Of a DNA stretch of 64,000 nt, positions 3,066 through 11,514 are shown in pieces; the stretch's first letter is position 1, and every line of letters begins with the position of its first letter. The notes under the pieces are model-generated. The model saw only the letters and a program-made list of their open reading frames with translations. It did not search any database and was not told where the DNA came from. Both the position numbers and the translations under genes were made by a program. Origin of the DNA: Crocinitomicaceae bacterium (lineage in GTDB: Bacteria; Bacteroidota; Bacteroidia; Flavobacteriales_D; Crocinitomicaceae); NCBI GenBank assembly GCA_029249445.1, contig JAQWHI010000013.1, forward strand, positions 124,001 through 188,000. Direction: 5' to 3'.

Positions 3066-4022
3066 ATGAAAAAAACACTACTACTAATCGCTACTTGCAT
3101 CGGGTCAATGACAATGGCTCAAGACTGCTCTGATTTATTTATCTCTGAATACGTAGAAGGATGGTCGAACAACAAAGCAATTGAATTGTACAATCCGACT
3201 GATGCTGATATTGACCTCAGTCAGTACATTATTGTTCGATATTCAAACGGTTCAACTTCAGCAACGCCTGCGAATGCTGTTGCCTTGATTGGAACTATTC
3301 CATCGTTAGGAACGCATGTTGGAGTAATCGAAAAGCTGGATCAAGCTGGAACAGGACAGGAAGCTCCTGTATGGGATTCGCTTCAAGCTAGAGCGGATCA
3401 ATTTTACTGTCCAGAATACAATGTTTCGAATGCATTTTATTGGAACGGAAACGATGTTGTCGTTTTGGCAAAAGGATCTATCGGAGACATTCTCAATGCA
3501 GAATTGATTGATATGTTTGGTAAACTGGGAGAGGATCCTGGTGTTGCATGGACGTCTGATTTCCCATACACTGGAGCGGGCGATGAAGTAACCAAAGATC
3601 ATTCAATGATTCGTAAGGCATCAATTCTTGGTGGTGTCACGAACTTACCGTCCTTCTTCGATCCATTAGAAGAGTACGATTCAATTCCTGCTGTTGTTGA
3701 TATAGGAGGGCAATTGTATGGTAACTGGTTCTCTTTAGGGGAGCATACATGTGACTGTGCAACTCTCGGTTTTAGTGAGGAGATTTCGAATGCGCCAGTG
3801 CGTGTTTTTCCAAACCCATCGACTGCTGAATTTGATGTTAGTGGAGTTGCTACATACAATACACTAGTTGTCTTGAACTCTTTAGGTCAAGAGGTAAGAA
3901 GAATGGAGAACAACACAAAGTCAGTCGTTTCATTCGACTTTTCAGGTAGAAGAGGTGTTTACTTTGTAAAAATGAGTGCTATCGACGGAAGTACAATCAC
4001 AAAACGTGTGATTGTTAAATAA
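3066..4022 (+). CDS. Secreted lamin-tail-domain protein with T9SS sorting domain
   Basis: A 318-residue secreted protein. It begins with a signal peptide ending near MTMAQD. Residues 20-200 resemble the bacterial lamin tail domain (LTD): DLFISEYVEGWSNNKAIELY, then strands of the form LSQYIIVRYSNG and a WNGNDVVVL segment. The last 75 residues form a type A T9SS sorting domain (VFPNPS near 247, ending KRVIVK), so the protein is exported by the type IX system and probably anchored or released at the surface. LTDs often accompany extracellular nucleases and phosphoesterases, and an endonuclease I gene lies 2.8 kb downstream. No enzymatic domain is visible. A strong terminator follows, before the TonB receptor. 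Binding partner unknown. Confidence 0.82.
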   Translation: MKKTLLLIATCIGSMTMAQDCSDLFISEYVEGWSNNKAIELYNPTDADIDLSQYIIVRYSNGSTSATPANAVALIGTIPSLGTHVGVIEKLDQAGTGQEAPVWDSLQARADQFYCPEYNVSNAFYWNGNDVVVLAKGSIGDILNAELIDMFGKLGEDPGVAWTSDFPYTGAGDEVTKDHSMIRKASILGGVTNLPSFFDPLEEYDSIPAVVDIGGQLYGNWFSLGEHTCDCATLGFSEEISNAPVRVFPNPSTAEFDVSGVATYNTLVVLNSLGQEVRRMENNTKSVVSFDFSGRRGVYFVKMSAIDGSTITKRVIVK

Positions 4023-4044
4023 TTAGAACAAATGAATTATAATT

Positions 4045-4085
4045 AGAGGTCTTTCGTGTACATTGTCGAGAGACCTCTTTTTTTG
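4045..4085 (+). terminator. Intrinsic terminator, possibly an attenuator
   Basis: AGAGGTCT at 4045-4052 pairs with AGACCTCT at 4071-4078, and the stem can extend inward by four pairs, including one G-U. A run of T follows (4079-4084). The structure ends only 7 nt before the ATG of the TonB receptor gene, so it would act within the leader of the downstream operon as well as terminate the upstream gene. Confidence 0.85.
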
Positions 4086-4091
4086 TAAGCT

Positions 4092-6830
4092 ATGAAATCA
4101 CTACTCTTAATTTTTGGACTACTCGTTTCGTTACAATCATTTTCACAAGTGGGAATGTTAAGTGGCACCGTAACAGATAATGGGGCAAAAGAGCCTGTTG
4201 TTGGCGCAAAAATAGTAATCTCACCTAAGCTGCGCGCTATATCCGATTTTGATGGAAATTATACCATAAAAAATGTTCCTTTTGGGGAGTATGAAATTGT
4301 CGTTTCAATGTTGTCATTTGACACTCTTTTTATGACAATTAGCGTTGATGCTCCTTATGTCAAAAATGACATACTCCTCGGTGGAAGTCAGGAGATCGAA
4401 GCTGTGAATGTTACTGGAAACCTTGCAAAAGATAGGGAAACACCTGTAGCTGTGACAACCTTAGGGGCAAAAGAAATTCAGGAGGAACTTGGCTCCCAAG
4501 ATCTTCCAATGGTTTTGAATTCGAAGCCAGGAGTTCATGCGACGCAAACAGGCGGGGGTGATGGAGATGCAAGAATCACCATTCGTGGTTTTAGCCAGCG
4601 AAACGTGGGAGTCATGATCGATGGTGTACCTGTCAACGATATGGAAAATGGCTGGGTTTATTGGTCAAACTGGTTTGGTTTGGATGCAATTACATCACAA
4701 ATACAAGTTCAGCGAGGTTTGGGAGCCACAAAGCTTGCAATGCCCTCTGTAGGAGGAACAATGAATATTCTTACTCAAAATACAGGAGGAAAGCGTCAGA
4801 TTAAATTTCGTCAAGAATACGGAACAGGGAATTTTTTACGAACATCACTCGCTTATAAATCCGGAACCCTTAAGAATGGCTGGGGAGTTTTGTTTTCTGG
4901 ATCTTATAAACAAGGTGATGGCTGGGTAGATGCATTGAATACGCAAGGCGGATTTTATTATCTTAAGGTACAAAAGAAATGGGGGAGTCATGTTACTTCT
5001 CTAAGCGGTTTTGGTGCACCACAGAATCATGGTCAACGCTCTTATTCGCAGCCAATCGAATATTGGGATTCAGAATATGCCTCTTCTTTAGGTATCGCTG
5101 ATTCTTTGATTGATTCAGATCGTGATAACGGGTCGCAATTTAACCAACATTGGGGTTGGAGAACTGATGAGAACGGCAATAGATACGTTCAAAATGAGCG
5201 AAAAAACTTTTATCATAAACCTCAGATCACCTTAAAAGATTTCTGGAAGATTAATGACAAACTATCGTGGTCGAATATAGCATATGTATCGATTGGTCGA
5301 GGTGGCGGACAGCGATTTTTCACTTCTTCATCCAATATATTGAGGGATAGCACAGGACTCATTGACTGGGATGTAATGGAGGATCGAAATATTGAATATC
5401 CTTTTTTCGGATCTATGATAAGTACAGTAGACACAAATTACCATCCTACTCATCACAAGTCATCACAGATTATTTCGGCATCTGTTAACAATCATTTTTG
5501 GGTTGGCGGACTGTCTCAATTTGATTACAAGGTGAATGGCAAATGGAAAATTGCAGCTGGTCTTGATTATAGATTTTACAAGGGCACACATTATACTGAA
5601 GTTGTTGATTTACTGGGAGGAGATTACTTCATCAATGAATCAAATTTAAATGCTGATACTCCAATGAAATACGTCGGGGACAAAATCGCTCGCGAGGACC
5701 GTCCTTATCAAAACCACCGGGATGGAATTGTGCAATGGGCAGGCGGTTTCGGTCAGGCCGAATATTCGTATGGTCGATGGAGTGCATTCGTCAATGTTTC
5801 TGGTGTGTCAAATTTCTACAAAGGCATTGATTATTTTAGGAACAAGCAAATTACACTTGGAGATTCAACATACACAATAGACGATACAACAACAATTCAA
5901 TACGATGGAAAAACCTATGATTCGAATTCTCCTGAACTCGTAGATAACCAAACGGATTGGGTTTCTAAGTCCGGGTTTACTGTCAAGACTGGAGCTAACT
6001 TGAACTTAACAGAACGATCAAATGTTTTCGTAAACCTTGGTGTCTTGAGCAGAACGCCACAATTTTCAAATGTAATAGACAATAACAACAATAAGGTTTT
6101 TGGTAATATTTTAAATGAAAACATTCTTGCGTTTGAAGTAGGATATGGGTTTAGATCAAAACGATTGAGTGGTAACTTCAACGGATACTGCACGCGCTGG
6201 GAAAATAGACCATTGCCATTTGGTTTACAAATCCAAGATCCAAATGATCCTCAGGAATTTATAGCTATCAATGTGCCAGGTATGGATGCCTTACACATTG
6301 GAGGTGAGATTGATTTGGCATATCGAATTTCAAAGAATCTTACTTTGGAGGGAATGGTGAGTATTGGAGATTGGACTTGGCAATCAAATGAGACAGTTGT
6401 TGTTTTGGGAGATACAAGTGTTCTTAATGCAAAAGGAATTCATGTCGGCGATGCTGCTCAATCTTCATACGCTGCAAGCTTGAGATATGCATTTGTGAAA
6501 AATGGATATATCAAGATCAAATACACATATTTTGATCGCTATTACAGTGACTTCAATCCAGATGATCTAACAGGAACAGATGTTGCTATTGAACCATGGA
6601 TAATCCCGGGATATGGGCTGATGAGTGTACATGCTGGCTATGGATTGAAATTTGAAAAAAGTCAATTGAACTTTAGAGCAAATGTATTTAACGCATTAAA
6701 TACAACATATATCTCTAATGCCAGAAATAATGGACATCTGGACAATTCAGATACGTACGACGCAAATTCAGCGACTGTATTTATCGGTCAAGGTCTTCGG
6801 TTCAATGTATCAGTTGGATTTCAGTTTTAA
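4092..6830 (+). CDS. TonB-dependent outer-membrane receptor with carboxypeptidase-like N-terminal domain
   Basis: A 912-residue outer-membrane transporter powered by TonB-ExbBD. It has a signal peptide (MKSLLLIFGLLVSLQSFSQ), a carboxypeptidase-D regulatory-like domain at about 22-105 (GTVTDNGAKEPVVGAKI), a plug domain at about 115-225 (ITIRGFSQRNVGVMIDGVP), then a beta-barrel of some 680 residues ending in Phe (VSVGFQF). The FNALNTTYI segment near the end is typical of the family. There is no SusD-like partner next to it, so it is not a standard SusCD pair. The next genes encode a secreted nuclease and two 5'-nucleotidase parts, which points to a nucleic-acid-derived or phosphate-containing substrate. 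The substrate itself cannot be read from the sequence. The start lies 7 nt after a terminator hairpin. Confidence 0.93.
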   Translation: MKSLLLIFGLLVSLQSFSQVGMLSGTVTDNGAKEPVVGAKIVISPKLRAISDFDGNYTIKNVPFGEYEIVVSMLSFDTLFMTISVDAPYVKNDILLGGSQEIEAVNVTGNLAKDRETPVAVTTLGAKEIQEELGSQDLPMVLNSKPGVHATQTGGGDGDARITIRGFSQRNVGVMIDGVPVNDMENGWVYWSNWFGLDAITSQIQVQRGLGATKLAMPSVGGTMNILTQNTGGKRQIKFRQEYGTGNFLRTSLAYKSGTLKNGWGVLFSGSYKQGDGWVDALNTQGGFYYLKVQKKWGSHVTSLSGFGAPQNHGQRSYSQPIEYWDSEYASSLGIADSLIDSDRDNGSQFNQHWGWRTDENGNRYVQNERKNFYHKPQITLKDFWKINDKLSWSNIAYVSIGRGGGQRFFTSSSNILRDSTGLIDWDVMEDRNIEYPFFGSMISTVDTNYHPTHHKSSQIISASVNNHFWVGGLSQFDYKVNGKWKIAAGLDYRFYKGTHYTEVVDLLGGDYFINESNLNADTPMKYVGDKIAREDRPYQNHRDGIVQWAGGFGQAEYSYGRWSAFVNVSGVSNFYKGIDYFRNKQITLGDSTYTIDDTTTIQYDGKTYDSNSPELVDNQTDWVSKSGFTVKTGANLNLTERSNVFVNLGVLSRTPQFSNVIDNNNNKVFGNILNENILAFEVGYGFRSKRLSGNFNGYCTRWENRPLPFGLQIQDPNDPQEFIAINVPGMDALHIGGEIDLAYRISKNLTLEGMVSIGDWTWQSNETVVVLGDTSVLNAKGIHVGDAAQSSYAASLRYAFVKNGYIKIKYTYFDRYYSDFNPDDLTGTDVAIEPWIIPGYGLMSVHAGYGLKFEKSQLNFRANVFNALNTTYISNARNNGHLDNSDTYDANSATVFIGQGLRFNVSVGFQF

Positions 6831-6857
6831 ATAATGAGAATAAAAACAAAAAATAAT

Positions 6858-9131
6858 ATGAAAAAAATACTTTTAATTTTAGCAGTAATTCTGGTGTCTG
6901 GTGTTCTTTCTGCACAGACAGATATTGCCAATGCACGTACTTTTGGAATTGGTCAAACAGTGACAGTTCATGGTGTGGCAACCAATGGCGCAGAGTTGGG
7001 TCCGATTCGTTATATGCAAGATGGAACCGCCGGGATTGCAGGATATGGTGGCCCAATTACTGGAGTCAATCGAGGAGATTCTATTTCGGTTACCGGCCCA
7101 TTGATTGAGTTTGCCGGTTTGCTTGAAATTTCAACAGTAACAAATGTTGTGAATCATGGACCCGCAGTTAACTTTCCAAGTCCACTTCAAATACCAATTA
7201 CCTCTGCTGGTGAAAGCATAGAATCAGAATTGGTAGAGATTCAAAATGTAACCTTTGTGGAGACAGGAAACTTTTCAGGAAATACGACATACACAATTAG
7301 TGATGGTTCGAGCACTCTGGATGTTCGTGTGAACAATGGGGTTAATCTTGTTGGAGCGCCGATTCCTTCAGGTCCTATTACAATCACAGGTTTGATTGGT
7401 CAGTACAACTCAAACTATCAAATAGTCCCTCGAGATCTTAATGATATCGTGACCTATGTTGCTCCAGTATACGAAATTAATGTTTTGGTAGAAGGAACAA
7501 CAGTTTTACATACAGACGATTATTTTATTGGCAACAATTCGGTAATTAATGTTACGATTGAAAATACGGGGTCATCTCCGTTAATTCTAACAGGGCATTC
7601 ATTTACTGGTGCCGATGCAGCTGATTTTTCATCAACTATTTCTGCAACAAGTATCGCTGGTTTATCGAGTCAATCGTATACAATTAACTATTCACCATCA
7701 GGTATTGGATCACATTTCGCTTCAATAGAGATTGGATCCAATGATTCAGATGAGAATCCGTACATTATCAATTTTGAAGGTGTTGGAACAGACAATCTCG
7801 CCTCTGAACCATCTGCAAATGCGACAGCACTCACGTTTCCGTTGTTAGAAGCCTATACTCTAGGTGGACAGTATACTGCTGGTACAGGAGCCGGGAAATA
7901 CCTGGTATTGTGGAAAAACGGAAGTGCAATTACTGGAGTTCCAACTGACGGAACAAGTTATTTACGAGGTGATGTAGTTGGGGATGCTCGTGTTGCTTAT
8001 GCAGGACCGGGAACTTCATTTACACCGAGAGGAGTTATTGCAAATCAAGATTACCATTTTGCAGTATATGCTTACAATGGTTCGGGTGGTTTTGAGAATT
8101 ATTTGACTAGTTCGCCTGCCATCGGGAATATTACAAGTTTGGGTGAACAAATTGGTACATATTACGATGGAATATCGACCTCTTCTAGTTCACTTCCTTC
8201 TGATCTTTATGCTCTGATCAATCCACATACTCAAATTACATATTTCATGTACAAACAAACCATGATGAGTGAATTTGAGATTCGTGATACACTCAATGGT
8301 CAATCTTACGTGACATGCGTTTATTCAGGGGAGAAAAAAGTGTTTGATGACCCATTTGATTGGACGGCGACAGGCTACAGTAGAGAGCACACATTTGCTC
8401 ATTCATGGATGCATTCTTGGCCTGCAGACAACCCAGAGTCACCTGAGTATACCGATCAGCACAACCTCTATCCAACGAACTTGTCTGGTGCGAATTCGCC
8501 TAGAAGTAACCTTCCTCTTGGCGACATTGTTGGAAACATCGTTTTTACGTTTCTCGAAGGAAACGTTGGAATAAATATTGATGGACAAATGGTTTATGAG
8601 CCGAGAGATATCCATAAAGGAAATGCCGCACGGTCAATTTTTTATATGGCTACCGCATATAATTTTGAGTTGACCGGTGATTTTGATTCAGACAAGCAAG
8701 ATGAGCAATTGCTAAAGGATTGGCATTTTGCGGATTTACCTGACGACTATGAAATTGCCCGAAATGAATACATTTTTGACCTACAAGGCAATAGGAATCC
8801 ATTCATTGACTCTGTTGATTTTGTTTGTTTCATCAACTTTGATGACAATGTGCATTTGCCCAATGGATGCCCCGTTGGTATAGAGGAGAAATTAGAAAAT
8901 AATTTCGTTGTTTATCCAGTTCCTGCTAACGATAAAGTATATATTCAAGTGAATGGAACGACAATTTCAGGTTATACCGTTCTTGATATGCAGGGACGCG
9001 TGGTTGTATCTGAACATCAATCGCAATTGCAGTTGTTGGAGTTAAATACAAGCGATTTTGAAGCAGGGCATTATATTGTTGAGGTAGAAACACCTTACGG
9101 CAAAGTTCAACAAAAGTTCATTATTGAATGA
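6858..9131 (+). CDS. T9SS-exported endonuclease I family nuclease, multidomain
   Basis: Predicted extracellular nuclease cutting DNA and/or RNA. The start at 6858 is preferred over 6834 because it begins a clean signal peptide (MKKILLILAVILVSGVLSAQ). In the 757-residue protein, about 20-210 look like an OB-fold nucleic-acid-binding region, 220-320 an ASH/choice-of-anchor immunoglobulin-like domain (NVTIENTGSSPLILTG), 320-425 a fibronectin-like segment, and 430-660 endonuclease I: SREHTFAHSWM, DQHNLYPTNLSGANSPRSN, YEPRDIHKGNAARSIFYM and NPFIDSVDFV, which include the metal-binding His/Asn positions of the family. About 670-757 is a type A T9SS sorting domain. Its stop codon overlaps the next gene by 4 bp, so the two are translationally coupled. 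Confidence 0.9.
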   Translation: MKKILLILAVILVSGVLSAQTDIANARTFGIGQTVTVHGVATNGAELGPIRYMQDGTAGIAGYGGPITGVNRGDSISVTGPLIEFAGLLEISTVTNVVNHGPAVNFPSPLQIPITSAGESIESELVEIQNVTFVETGNFSGNTTYTISDGSSTLDVRVNNGVNLVGAPIPSGPITITGLIGQYNSNYQIVPRDLNDIVTYVAPVYEINVLVEGTTVLHTDDYFIGNNSVINVTIENTGSSPLILTGHSFTGADAADFSSTISATSIAGLSSQSYTINYSPSGIGSHFASIEIGSNDSDENPYIINFEGVGTDNLASEPSANATALTFPLLEAYTLGGQYTAGTGAGKYLVLWKNGSAITGVPTDGTSYLRGDVVGDARVAYAGPGTSFTPRGVIANQDYHFAVYAYNGSGGFENYLTSSPAIGNITSLGEQIGTYYDGISTSSSSLPSDLYALINPHTQITYFMYKQTMMSEFEIRDTLNGQSYVTCVYSGEKKVFDDPFDWTATGYSREHTFAHSWMHSWPADNPESPEYTDQHNLYPTNLSGANSPRSNLPLGDIVGNIVFTFLEGNVGINIDGQMVYEPRDIHKGNAARSIFYMATAYNFELTGDFDSDKQDEQLLKDWHFADLPDDYEIARNEYIFDLQGNRNPFIDSVDFVCFINFDDNVHLPNGCPVGIEEKLENNFVVYPVPANDKVYIQVNGTTISGYTVLDMQGRVVVSEHQSQLQLLELNTSDFEAGHYIVEVETPYGKVQQKFIIE

Positions 9132-9835
9132 TCCACAAGTACTTGATAGTATTTTTCATTGGAGCAGGTCTTTTGGCCTGCTCTTCTGTTACTGGCATTG
9201 GCTTTGAAGCAGAACAAATTGCAGTCACTGGCGCGAATTCATCTGATAATGTGATTGATAGTCTCATTCGACCTTACAAAGTTAAGATGGATGCTAAAAT
9301 GGATTCTACGATTGCCATAGCAGATCAAGATTTCACAAAAGGTCGCCCCGGAGGAGCATTGAACAATTGGGCTGCCGATGCCATATATAATCAAGTAGAA
9401 CAATCCATTAAAGATCAATTGCCTAAATTATGTTTACTAAACGTTGGAGGATTGAGAAATCCGATCAATAAAGGGAATGTTTCACTTGGGGATATTTTCA
9501 AACTAATGCCTTTTGACAATGAAGTTGTTGCGGTAAAATTACCCATGTCAACTATTGAGGAAATCGAGGCTTATTTTAAAAAAAGTGGGGGAGAGCCTAT
9601 ATCTGGAGCAATGGTAAAAGCAGGAAAGATACGTTTTGTTGAGGATTATATAAATCCAAGGTTCTTTTGGGTTATAACATCAGATTATCTTTTGGGAGGA
9701 GGAGATCACATGGATTTCTTCACCAAAGGTATTGAGATTCAGAATACGGGGTTATTGATGCGTGATTTGATGCTTAAAGAGGCCTCTGAGCAAGGTAGAT
9801 TGATTTGGGACAATGAAATTCGAATATCCTTTTAG
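9128..9835 (+). CDS. 5'-nucleotidase C-terminal domain lipoprotein
   Basis: A 235-residue protein that consists only of the substrate-binding C-terminal domain of UshA-type 5'-nucleotidases. A lipobox (GLLACSS, Cys18) predicts a lipid-anchored envelope protein. Family features are KGRPGGALNNWAADA, LLNVGGLRNPINKGNVSLGD, PFDNEVVAVKL and the YLLGGGDHM segment, where nucleotide base contacts normally sit. The metallophosphatase half that it needs is encoded by the next gene, 2 nt downstream, so the enzyme is split in two and in the order opposite to the single-chain form (metal domain first). It overlaps the nuclease gene by 4 bp. The family assignment is firm; that the two halves act together is inferred. 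Confidence 0.88.
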   Translation: MIHKYLIVFFIGAGLLACSSVTGIGFEAEQIAVTGANSSDNVIDSLIRPYKVKMDAKMDSTIAIADQDFTKGRPGGALNNWAADAIYNQVEQSIKDQLPKLCLLNVGGLRNPINKGNVSLGDIFKLMPFDNEVVAVKLPMSTIEEIEAYFKKSGGEPISGAMVKAGKIRFVEDYINPRFFWVITSDYLLGGGDHMDFFTKGIEIQNTGLLMRDLMLKEASEQGRLIWDNEIRISF

Positions 9836-9837
9836 AT

Positions 9838-10752
9838 ATGAAAAGAAGAGACTTTGTTCGAACGACCGCCTTGATTTCAGGATGCTCCCTTGTTGCGCCC
9901 TCTGTTTTGTCAAGAGACGTTGGTAGAAGTAAGAGTGTCAAATCCAATCGTTTGACTATTTTACATACGAATGATACACATTCAAATATTGACCCCTTTC
10001 CAATGAATCATGCAAAGTATCCTGGGAAGGGTGGTGTCGCTCGGCGCTATGAGTTGATTCAAAAAATACGTACAGAAGAAGAGAATGTTCTACTTCTTGA
10101 TGCAGGTGATATTTTCCAAGGAACTCCATATTTTAATCTGTATGGTGGAGTGTTGGAGATGAAGTTGATGTCAAAATTAGGTTATGATGCCGTAACAATG
10201 GGAAATCATGATTTTGATGGTGGTATGGATGGTTTTGTCAAGGCAGTTGAATATGCTAACTTTCCGTTTTTGTGTTCCAATTATGGTTTTTCTAATACAC
10301 CTATTGATGGAATTACCCGAGAGCACCTTATACTCGAGAAAGGAAACATGAAGGTCGGAATTTTTGGTATTGGTGTGGAATTAAATGGACTGGTACCAAA
10401 GGTCAAGTTTGGTGAAACGAAATATTTTGATCCGATAGAAATAGCAAATGACCAAGCCCAGCAACTAAAGGAGAAAGGTTGTGATCTAATTATTTGTCTT
10501 TCGCATTTGGGATATGCTTATGATGACGATCAAGTATCTGATCTTGTATTGGCTCGGCGAACAAAAAATATACATTTGATTATTGGCGGGCATACGCACA
10601 CATTTCTTGAGAGACCTGTAGAAGAGAAGAATATGGCTGGTGAAACGGTTTTGATAAATCAAGTGGGCTGGGCAGGAATTAACGTAGGACGTATCGATTT
10701 CGAGTTTGAATTCAAGAAATTCGAAAAAAAAGATGTGCTCTTTGTACAATAA
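9838..10752 (+). CDS. 5'-nucleotidase metallophosphatase domain protein with Tat-like signal
   Basis: A 304-residue calcineurin-like phosphoesterase of the UshA/5'-nucleotidase N-terminal type. It begins with a twin-arginine-like leader (MKRRDFVRTTALISG), suggesting export of a folded, metal-loaded protein. Metal ligands are visible in the expected order: ILHTNDTHSN, LLDAGDIFQG, GNHDFDGGMDG, CLSHLGYAYDDDQ and IGGHTHTFLE. It ends where the metal domain ends; the substrate-binding half is the preceding gene, 2 nt upstream. Together they should hydrolyse nucleoside 5'-phosphates outside the inner membrane, giving nucleoside and phosphate. Position after a secreted nuclease supports a role in using external nucleic acids. 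Confidence 0.9.
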   Translation: MKRRDFVRTTALISGCSLVAPSVLSRDVGRSKSVKSNRLTILHTNDTHSNIDPFPMNHAKYPGKGGVARRYELIQKIRTEEENVLLLDAGDIFQGTPYFNLYGGVLEMKLMSKLGYDAVTMGNHDFDGGMDGFVKAVEYANFPFLCSNYGFSNTPIDGITREHLILEKGNMKVGIFGIGVELNGLVPKVKFGETKYFDPIEIANDQAQQLKEKGCDLIICLSHLGYAYDDDQVSDLVLARRTKNIHLIIGGHTHTFLERPVEEKNMAGETVLINQVGWAGINVGRIDFEFEFKKFEKKDVLFVQ

Positions 10753-10803
10753 TTATTCAACTATATCATTATACATATGCTAGCTAATAAAAAAACAAAC
10801 AAA

Positions 10804-11514
10804 ATGAGTATTATAAAACTATTTAGTGTATCCCTAATTTTTCTCATTTCCTTCGGATCAATGGCACAAAATGAGGTGATTATAATTGACCGCAAGAACT
10901 ACAAGAAAGATCGAAACCGAGATATACGTTTGAATGATAATACTCAAATTGTTAAATTTGCTCCGATCAATTTGTTGGCAGGAGAGATTAACTTTGGCTA
11001 TGAAAGACAACTGAGCCAGAAGAGCAGTCTTGATTTTGAAATCGGTCCAACACTATCGAATCTTAGGACAGGATTTAATAATCATTTTATTGATCCTTTT
11101 CAACCTGTGACAGTAGCAAAAAGTGCATTGGGATTTTTAATAGGGGCTAGTTTTCGTTATTATCCTTTGGACGAAACTGAAGCGTTGAATCGTTTTTATG
11201 TAAGTCCAGTTTTGAAATACAAATTGATGAATTCTCGTTTTGAAGACGTATCCGGATTTGTTGACGGTACAAGACGTGGGTCTTTTTCGCGATTGAACTT
11301 TTACTTTAATTTTGGGTATCAATTTTGGTTATCTAAGTCATTTTCACTAGATGTTTTTGGTGGTTTTGGCCTTGGCTTTCACAGTGAGATAGCGTACACA
11401 GCAAATCATATATTTACTGGGGACGATTGGTTAAGTTCATGGGAAGAAAGAACGCACAGTCAAGGTGTTCTAGTTGGAAATGTTGGACTAAAACTTGGGA
11501 TTGGATCGAAATAA
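10804..11514 (+). CDS. Outer-membrane beta-barrel-like protein, uncharacterised
   Basis: About 237 residues with a signal peptide (MSIIKLFSVSLIFLISFGSMAQ); the start at 10804 is chosen because an upstream in-frame ATG at 10777 would add a charged stretch before that signal. The mature part has alternating aromatic and polar strands typical of a small beta-barrel (INFGYERQLSQKSSLDFEIG, GFLIGASFRYYPLD, NFYFNFGYQFWLSKSFSLD, GGFGLGFHSE) and ends GLKLGIGSK. It resembles DUF3575-like or general outer-membrane beta-barrel proteins, but I do not recognise a specific family. It lies 51 nt after the metallophosphatase and may be the last gene of that operon. It converges with the glycosyltransferase gene. 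Confidence 0.72.
   Translation: MSIIKLFSVSLIFLISFGSMAQNEVIIIDRKNYKKDRNRDIRLNDNTQIVKFAPINLLAGEINFGYERQLSQKSSLDFEIGPTLSNLRTGFNNHFIDPFQPVTVAKSALGFLIGASFRYYPLDETEALNRFYVSPVLKYKLMNSRFEDVSGFVDGTRRGSFSRLNFYFNFGYQFWLSKSFSLDVFGGFGLGFHSEIAYTANHIFTGDDWLSSWEERTHSQGVLVGNVGLKLGIGSK

Follow-up and report, generated by a model that had tools for sequence, protein, structure and literature searches.

A locus of six genes in a Crocinitomicaceae bacterium, at positions 3066-11514 on the forward strand of a 64,000-nucleotide stretch of contig JAQWHI010000013.1 (the window; assembly GCA_029249445.1, a 94% complete draft of 2.33 Mb), is interpreted here as a nucleic-acid acquisition system coupled to TonB, with a probability of about two in three. 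The locus encodes a protein with a lamin tail domain (LTD), a TonB-dependent receptor, a nuclease that combines DUF5689 with Endonuclease I, the two halves of a 5'-nucleotidase and a small outer-membrane protein. The LTD protein and the DUF5689-Endonuclease I protein would be exported to the cell surface by the type IX secretion system (T9SS), where tandem oligonucleotide/oligosaccharide-binding (OB) folds would hold external DNA or RNA for the nuclease to cut; the resulting oligonucleotides would cross the outer membrane through the dedicated receptor; a two-subunit UshA-type 5'-nucleotidase, consisting of a lipoprotein half and a metallophosphatase half exported by twin-arginine translocation (Tat), would strip phosphate in the periplasm; and nucleosides would enter the cell through a concentrative nucleoside transporter (CNT), to the benefit of the cell as phosphate, nitrogen or bases. 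A first-pass annotation of the window had already proposed scavenging of extracellular nucleic acid; its nucleic-acid substrate, secreted nuclease and TonB coupling are supported by the results below, but both the order of the steps and the membership of the conserved unit are changed.

Comparison of genomes indicates that the conserved unit is the triad of LTD, receptor and DUF5689/nuclease genes, in which the receptor and LTD stay while the nuclease domain is exchanged, being either Endonuclease I or a phospholipase D (PLD) domain with two HKD motifs. The searches that supplied the hand-picked loci described below scored three candidates per genome, so absences there are weak evidence. Among genomes of the same genus, the receptor was found in 21 of 24, and the same 21 have a strong match to the metallophosphatase half (in pieces in two of them); the three genomes without the receptor (G002, G003, G006) are 79-83% complete. 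Of twenty loci of the genus, 17 include the receptor; the nuclease and both halves of the nucleotidase accompany it in all 17, and the LTD gene does so in 16, the 17th being cut by a contig end; in the other three loci the contig ends inside the nuclease gene. Loci of other Crocinitomicaceae genera contain LTD, receptor and Endonuclease I in 25 of 25 cases, the C-terminal half of the nucleotidase in 24 and the N-terminal half in 23. Fifteen loci from other families of the order all have the receptor and LTD, and 14 have a nuclease domain (seven Endonuclease I, seven PLD; the other is cut by a contig end), and no nucleotidase pair was found in the stretches fetched for them.

Across Bacteroidota, an LTD gene lies beside the receptor in 40 of 40 loci (L092-L131) and 19 of 20 class-level loci, both sets hand-picked for spread over genera and families and the latter drawn from full-length hits, and in 74 of 80 named loci (L132-L211), which are the best 80 of at least 585 relatives and lean to near kin. 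Some loci represent the same genome twice, and although the hairpin survey described below was de-duplicated, the counts of LTD adjacency, motifs, gaps and junction hairpins were not. The six other named loci comprise four with a contig end, one with a downstream protein that matches both LTD and DUF5689 profiles (L189) and one with the LTD gene 653 bp upstream (L199). The third gene of the named loci encodes DUF5689 with Endonuclease I in 39, DUF5689 with PLD in 22, Endonuclease I alone in five and DUF5689 alone in five (four of them near contig ends); it is cut in seven and is not downstream in two (L194, L196), where the DUF5689 gene precedes LTD. Labels of the named loci include Brumimicrobium (L142, L171), Lishizhenia, Saprospiraceae, Bacteroidales, Marinilabiliales and Prolixibacteraceae, some labels of metagenome-assembled genomes being plainly unreliable. 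At class level, 19 of the 20 loci have LTD (L328 as a partial match at a contig edge) and 19 a nuclease gene (15 Endonuclease I, four PLD). The first-pass annotation had named a lack of conserved linkage among related genomes as grounds for abandoning its proposal; for the triad, linkage extends far beyond the genus. The arrangement exceeds chance: blocks with this gene order recur at the levels of genus, family and phylum, and in a contrast set of 20 loci of more distant receptors, no adjoining LTD gene was found by the LTD profile used. Endonuclease I occurs near three of the 20 (L224, L225, L233). A 21st distant locus, L286 (7713-10553), has an LTD-DUF5689 fusion beside the receptor, and in L272 (8609-10639) a DUF5689 protein of the type found in Riemerella carries an LTD domain; such fusions next to receptor genes support a joint role.

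The nuclease supports a nucleic-acid substrate. Its Endonuclease_1 domain (PF04231) scores 88.7 bits against a cut-off of 25, its best match in the PDB is Endonuclease I 1oup (E 1.4e-8), and of 86 homologs, all 86 carry the motif REH and 85 the motif N..R.N, the catalytic motifs of this enzyme family. The translation of its open reading frame, numbered from position 6834, comprises a signal peptide, the DUF5689 tandem OB folds, an Ig-like domain, Endonuclease I (residues 453-660) and a T9SS sorting domain (residues 693-764), but the start is probably the ATG at 6858 because that methionine is invariant in 22 aligned sequences. The sorting domains (PF18962/TIGR04183) of both the nuclease and the LTD protein score above the cut-off, as for T9SS type A cargo; thus the T9SS-exported endonuclease I of the first-pass annotation is borne out, with the addition of DUF5689, which it had not named. 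A model of the DUF5689 region and part of the next domain, built from 22 sequences, consists of tandem OB folds (pLDDT 85.7). In a Foldseek comparison with the PDB its top matches were the DNA-binding HIN domains of p204/IFI16 (best E 2.5e-5), followed by OB folds of YgiW, aspartyl-tRNA synthetase and RPA; template-modelling scores normalized to the query were at most 0.31, which assigns the fold type and not a close relative. Matches to OB families of Pfam below threshold were seen in three relatives. By this model DUF5689 is likely a tandem OB module that binds nucleic acid. Two HKD motifs are present in every one of 31 proteins of the alternative PLD version, and the single PLD protein compared with the PDB (from L182) matched only chains labeled mitochondrial cardiolipin hydrolase and the endonuclease 1byr; the former are presumably Zucchini/PLD6, an RNA nuclease. 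Because the DUF5689 OB folds match HIN domains, and because the same receptor/LTD pair occurs with either of two unrelated catalytic folds, the substrate of the triad is very probably nucleic acid.

The LTD protein, proposed to be the surface binder or anchor of the triad, matches Pfam LTD with 47.9 bits (residues 19-136) and Por_Secre_tail with 31.5 bits, its sorting domain spanning residues 247-316. Its top NCBIfam profile is ExeM (58.5 bits over residues 8-138), far under the cut-off of the ExeM family. Residues C21, H227, C229 and C231 are invariant in 24 aligned sequences. In its structure model the sorting domain matches 8glk_D, a chain of a NucA-bound T9SS complex, and comparison of the model with the PDB gave nothing informative beyond that domain.

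The receptor has a Plug domain of 58.3 bits against a cut-off of 23.9, typical of TonB-dependent receptors, and no match to the barrel family PF00593 at E 0.001. In a phylogenetic tree it belongs to one clade (SH-aLRT support 99) with LTD- and nuclease-linked receptors of other Bacteroidota, and the gap between receptor and Endonuclease I genes is 2-161 bp in 84 loci. A plasmid collection yielded 19 records with top identities of 35% and 34%, and the two inspected had no LTD, DUF5689 or nuclease gene by profile. As a separate observation, a genome of another family (G037, L131) has a receptor 70% identical to that of the window, with LTD and nuclease genes and no nucleotidase pair in the stretch; its nesting in the tree among the kin of the window's receptor suggests horizontal transfer.

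Table 1. Features of the locus, with coordinates in the window.
Feature	Coordinates	Strand	Description
LTD protein	3066..4022	+	318 aa; signal peptide, lamin tail domain, T9SS type A sorting domain
Terminator-like hairpin	4045..4084	+	between LTD and receptor genes; with a run of seven T
TonB-dependent receptor	4092..6830	+	912 aa; carboxypeptidase-regulatory domain aa 23-91, plug aa 114-223
DUF5689-Endonuclease I nuclease	6858..9131 (reading frame opens at 6834)	+	DUF5689, Endonuclease_1 and T9SS sorting domain
5'-nucleotidase, C-terminal half	9128..9835	+	separate predicted lipoprotein, 5_nucleotid_C
5'-nucleotidase, metallophosphatase (N-terminal) half	9838..10752	+	separate protein, Tat-type signal, Metallophos
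DUF3575 small outer-membrane protein	10777..11514	+	marginal Pfam match; accessory

The six same-strand genes of the first-pass annotation (Table 1) were confirmed in the list of open reading frames, and their families by Pfam and NCBIfam scans of eight proteins of the window; the overlap of 4 bp between the nuclease and C-half genes (9128-9131) and the gap of 2 nt between the C-half and N-half genes (9836-9837) are exactly as it gave them. It had also noted the lack of SusD: among the eight proteins scanned there is no member of a SusD family, and hence not the SusC-SusD pair of a polysaccharide or phosphate utilization locus (PUL or PUS). The small outer-membrane protein is present as claimed, scoring 23.1 bits against a cut-off of 21.1 for DUF3575, a marginal match, but it can be called only accessory: it occurs in 10 of the 20 genus loci and in 9 of the 25 from other Crocinitomicaceae. 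The source genome has a further Endonuclease I gene outside the locus (G000:C12:263454-264116, L001).

The two halves of the 5'-nucleotidase were confirmed, too, but their place in the conserved unit is limited to Crocinitomicaceae. The C half matches 5_nucleotid_C with 47 bits over positions 21-78 of the 158 in the profile; the N half matches Metallophos with 72.3 bits and the UshA profile with 106.7 bits, which is below a cut-off of 600 set for a two-domain protein. UshA-type enzymes have both domains in one chain, whereas here the domains are on two genes. The lipobox of the C half was matched in 57 of 73 loci of the family, the 16 misses being 14 cases of an L-W-A-C variant by eye, one L-C-A-C and one masked. 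The cysteine is followed mostly by Ser, Val or His, with few Lys or Asp and no acidic run, which in lipoproteins is a signal for surface export. The N half has a Tat-type RR-x-[FLMV] motif in 64 of 71 relatives. Both halves are predicted from these signals to be periplasmic, so phosphate would be removed after import, and a likely order of binding, cutting, import and dephosphorylation replaces the cutting, dephosphorylation and import of the first-pass annotation. The source genome has one match to a CNT nucleoside transporter.

It is possible, though the less favored view, that the nucleotidase pair is a housekeeping recycler of nucleotides that merely adjoins the triad in Crocinitomicaceae, which would be compatible with the proposed function of the triad itself. 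The pair occurs without the triad in eight of eight loci from other families (stretches of 5-20 kb), and the metallophosphatase half is present in 12 of 20 Crocinitomicaceae genomes for which no receptor was listed, absence of the receptor being uncertain with three candidates scored per genome. On the other side, the gap from nuclease to C half and that from C half to N half both have medians of -1 bp (72 and 79 loci, respectively, with gene starts set by a simple signal-peptide rule), and such overlaps and near-zero gaps are typical of translational coupling. The split nucleotidase appears to be an add-on, joined to the triad only in Crocinitomicaceae, and the idea that the pair was part of the ancestral system was rejected.

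Several points weigh against a nucleic-acid acquisition system. The analysis establishes the genes, their domains and linkage, the exchange of nuclease domains, the export signals as predictions and a CNT gene in the genome; binding, cutting, transport, the order of the steps and the benefit are inferred from these. Endonuclease I leaves oligonucleotides, whereas the substrates of UshA-type enzymes are mononucleotides, and the locus has no gene for an exonuclease. An upstream DPP4 gene is about as conserved in the family as the nucleotidase link (14 of 20 genus loci, 23 of 25 other Crocinitomicaceae loci), and since that link exists in one family only, it may reflect nothing more than common ancestry; the comparable conservation of DPP4 was also the reason for rejecting within-family synteny as proof of function. 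One of the 20 class-level receptor loci (L323) has neither LTD nor nuclease. The top match of the receptor profile among PDB sequences is 9gbc, the XusAB complex of iron piracy, over only positions 4-271 of 913. The PLD version of the nuclease could act on phospholipids, given the PDB label that names cardiolipin, but a nucleic-acid substrate is favored because the OB module and LTD are common to both versions.

An unlikely alternative is that the receptor and DUF5689 protein constitute an outer-membrane entry for DNA in natural transformation, with the nuclease trimming the DNA. In Riemerella anatipestifer, a pair of a receptor-like protein and a DUF5689 protein (RA0C_RS04915/RS04920) is reported to be essential for transformation (PMC8459023), and tonB mutants transform less, for one of two of which the authors blame iron supply (PMC8383284). 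Searching 36 genomes for DUF5689 gave matches in 19, and among 20 regions fetched around DUF5689 genes, 16 (L267-L282) show a receptor-like gene next to DUF5689, with another open reading frame in between in two of the 16, as described for F. columnare; the remaining four are the fusion L286 and three cases of SusCD with DUF5689 (L283 and L285 assigned by Pfam, L284 only by gene sizes). When one Riemerella-like receptor served as query, the triad receptor ranked first in all 19 genomes that belong neither to the family of the query nor to a kindred one, including that of the window, at 22-28% identity. However, the Riemerella-like receptors form a separate clade (SH-aLRT 100, 15 rows), by which orthology to the triad receptor is rejected and a looser kinship is left; the reciprocal search also fails, since in G433, G572 and G481, which all contain the Riemerella-like pair, the best receptor for the triad profile is another one, beside phosphoglucose isomerase. 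Six Riemerella-like DUF5689 partners that were scanned have no nuclease domain, whereas the partner in the window carries Endonuclease I. The look-alike pairs are identified with that of Riemerella by their gene layout. ComEC (PF03772) had no match in the genome of the window, a 94% complete draft, or in three of 24 sister genomes (G001, G015, G019), though all four have the receptor; it is present in the other 21 of the same genus. These four may have lost transformation, or the drafts may miss ComEC. Because ComEC was not found there, nutrition is favored over transformation in the window, and transformation is regarded as the use that a relative would make of related parts. It is suggested tentatively that the triad, in which one clade of TonB-dependent receptor is joined by a binder with LTD and an OB-fold nuclease that can be exchanged, is a phylum-wide, undescribed outer-membrane importer of nucleic acids, and that the DNA-uptake channel for transformation in Flavobacteriaceae arose from its kin with loss of the nuclease domain.

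It is improbable that clearance or remodeling of extracellular DNA (of biofilm, slime, phage or predator) is the role of the secreted proteins, with an unrelated ligand, for instance a chelated metal, as the cargo of the receptor. In favor of this view, biofilms are a frequent site of action of extracellular nucleases (PMC6085458), and the nearest solved receptor by sequence, in its N-terminal part only, is from an iron-piracy system. Against it, LTD and a nuclease accompany the receptor clade across the phylum, the gaps between receptor and Endonuclease I genes are short, as given above, and no siderophore gene was found among the eight window proteins scanned.

Expression of the triad may be uneven. 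The LTD gene cannot simply be assumed to share a full-length transcript with the other genes, because a terminator-like hairpin intervenes (11-12 pairs, -17.5 kcal/mol, loop of 10). After near copies (>90% identity) were dropped, 105 non-redundant LTD-receptor gaps of other genomes remained, of which 20 were too short and 85 of at least 25 bp were tested. Strict criteria detected a hairpin in 39 of the 85, compared to a mean of 0.7 in 20 shuffles; relaxed criteria (one mismatch, T run of four) detected 51, compared to a mean of 4.05 and a maximum of 7 in 20 shuffles, leaving 34 gaps without such a hairpin. Hairpins were found at none of 84 receptor-nuclease junctions and one of 72 nuclease-nucleotidase junctions, which are shorter and thus weaker controls. 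Stem sequences vary between families, and the distance from the end of the T tail to the start of the receptor gene is 3-89 bp across loci (7 bp in the window). A general scan for promoters and terminators gave sites no more numerous than in shuffles and did not list the hairpin, its scan being confined to loops of 3-8. Because the T tail so near the receptor start leaves scant room for a promoter, we infer from the sequence that the hairpin is an attenuator, with read-through that would yield more LTD protein than receptor; alternatively, a promoter within the LTD gene may serve for transcription of the receptor.

Parts of the system resemble known ones. B. subtilis YhcR combines OB folds, nuclease and 5'-nucleotidase in one wall-bound polypeptide, with no receptor, and Izemoplasmatales are bacteria without an outer membrane. 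DNA-degradation loci of the latter similarly serve for feeding on DNA, with nucleases that act outside the cell, LTD proteins and nucleotidases, but a figure legend shows phosphate ABC transporter genes, and no mention of a TonB receptor was found (PMC8289736). Flavobacterium PUS (PusCD) likewise places TonB-dependent import beside phosphoesterases, but PUSI and PUSII use SusCD pairs, unlike the SusD-less receptor tied to a nuclease here; EndA1 and EndA2 of F. johnsoniae, each with LTD and Endonuclease I in one chain, appear with positive changes in a table of the response to phosphate depletion, but are listed as orphans and not beside a receptor (PMC8115612). Shewanella ExeM also combines LTD, two OB folds and a nuclease for action on DNA outside the cytoplasm; it loses its activity when the two-OB region is deleted, and LTD is partly dispensable (PMC6085458). 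ExeM, however, is a single polypeptide bound to the envelope, has an EEP nuclease and lacks a receptor, in contrast to the two T9SS proteins, with Endonuclease I or PLD, and the receptor described here. The Riemerella pair shares an outer-membrane protein with a carboxypeptidase-regulatory domain adjoining a DUF5689 protein, but its look-alikes here lack a nuclease domain and belong to another receptor clade, and its use is transformation with ComEC (PMC8459023). No description of this receptor-nuclease set was found in the open literature, subscription journals lying mostly outside the search, and for DUF5689 the Riemerella paper alone was found there (PMC8459023). The gene set is real and conserved and, as far as searched, undescribed. 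If the interpretation is correct, it adds a new route for nucleic acids through the outer membrane in many Bacteroidota, and DUF5689 gains a likely role as a tandem OB module that binds nucleic acid. The receptor-nuclease set would be a marker for DNA-eating Bacteroidota in metagenomes and can be tested directly by gene deletion in ordinary environmental strains.

Other arrangements were encountered among the loci examined. In L233 (8423-16489), one strand carries genes for a different receptor, a full-length 5'-nucleotidase, Endonuclease I and DUF5689, which were apparently assembled separately. A SusC-SusD pair is directly followed by a DUF5689 protein in L283 (4393-12297), where a calcineurin-like phosphoesterase follows as well, and in L285 (8761-15192); these are a SusCD form of the same theme. 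Such separate assemblies of the parts, in L233 and L283, count in favor of the acquisition system proposed. A gene for phosphoglucose isomerase adjoins the distant receptor group in L222, L224 and L232, which represent three genomes from the same family. A DUF5017 domain is reported in the Riemerella DUF5689 protein as well (PMC8459023), and in a plasmid-labeled sequence of Phocaeicola massiliensis (L308, 5899-10264) a DUF5017 protein directly follows a receptor whose score resembles those of the distant group, but which was not placed in the tree.

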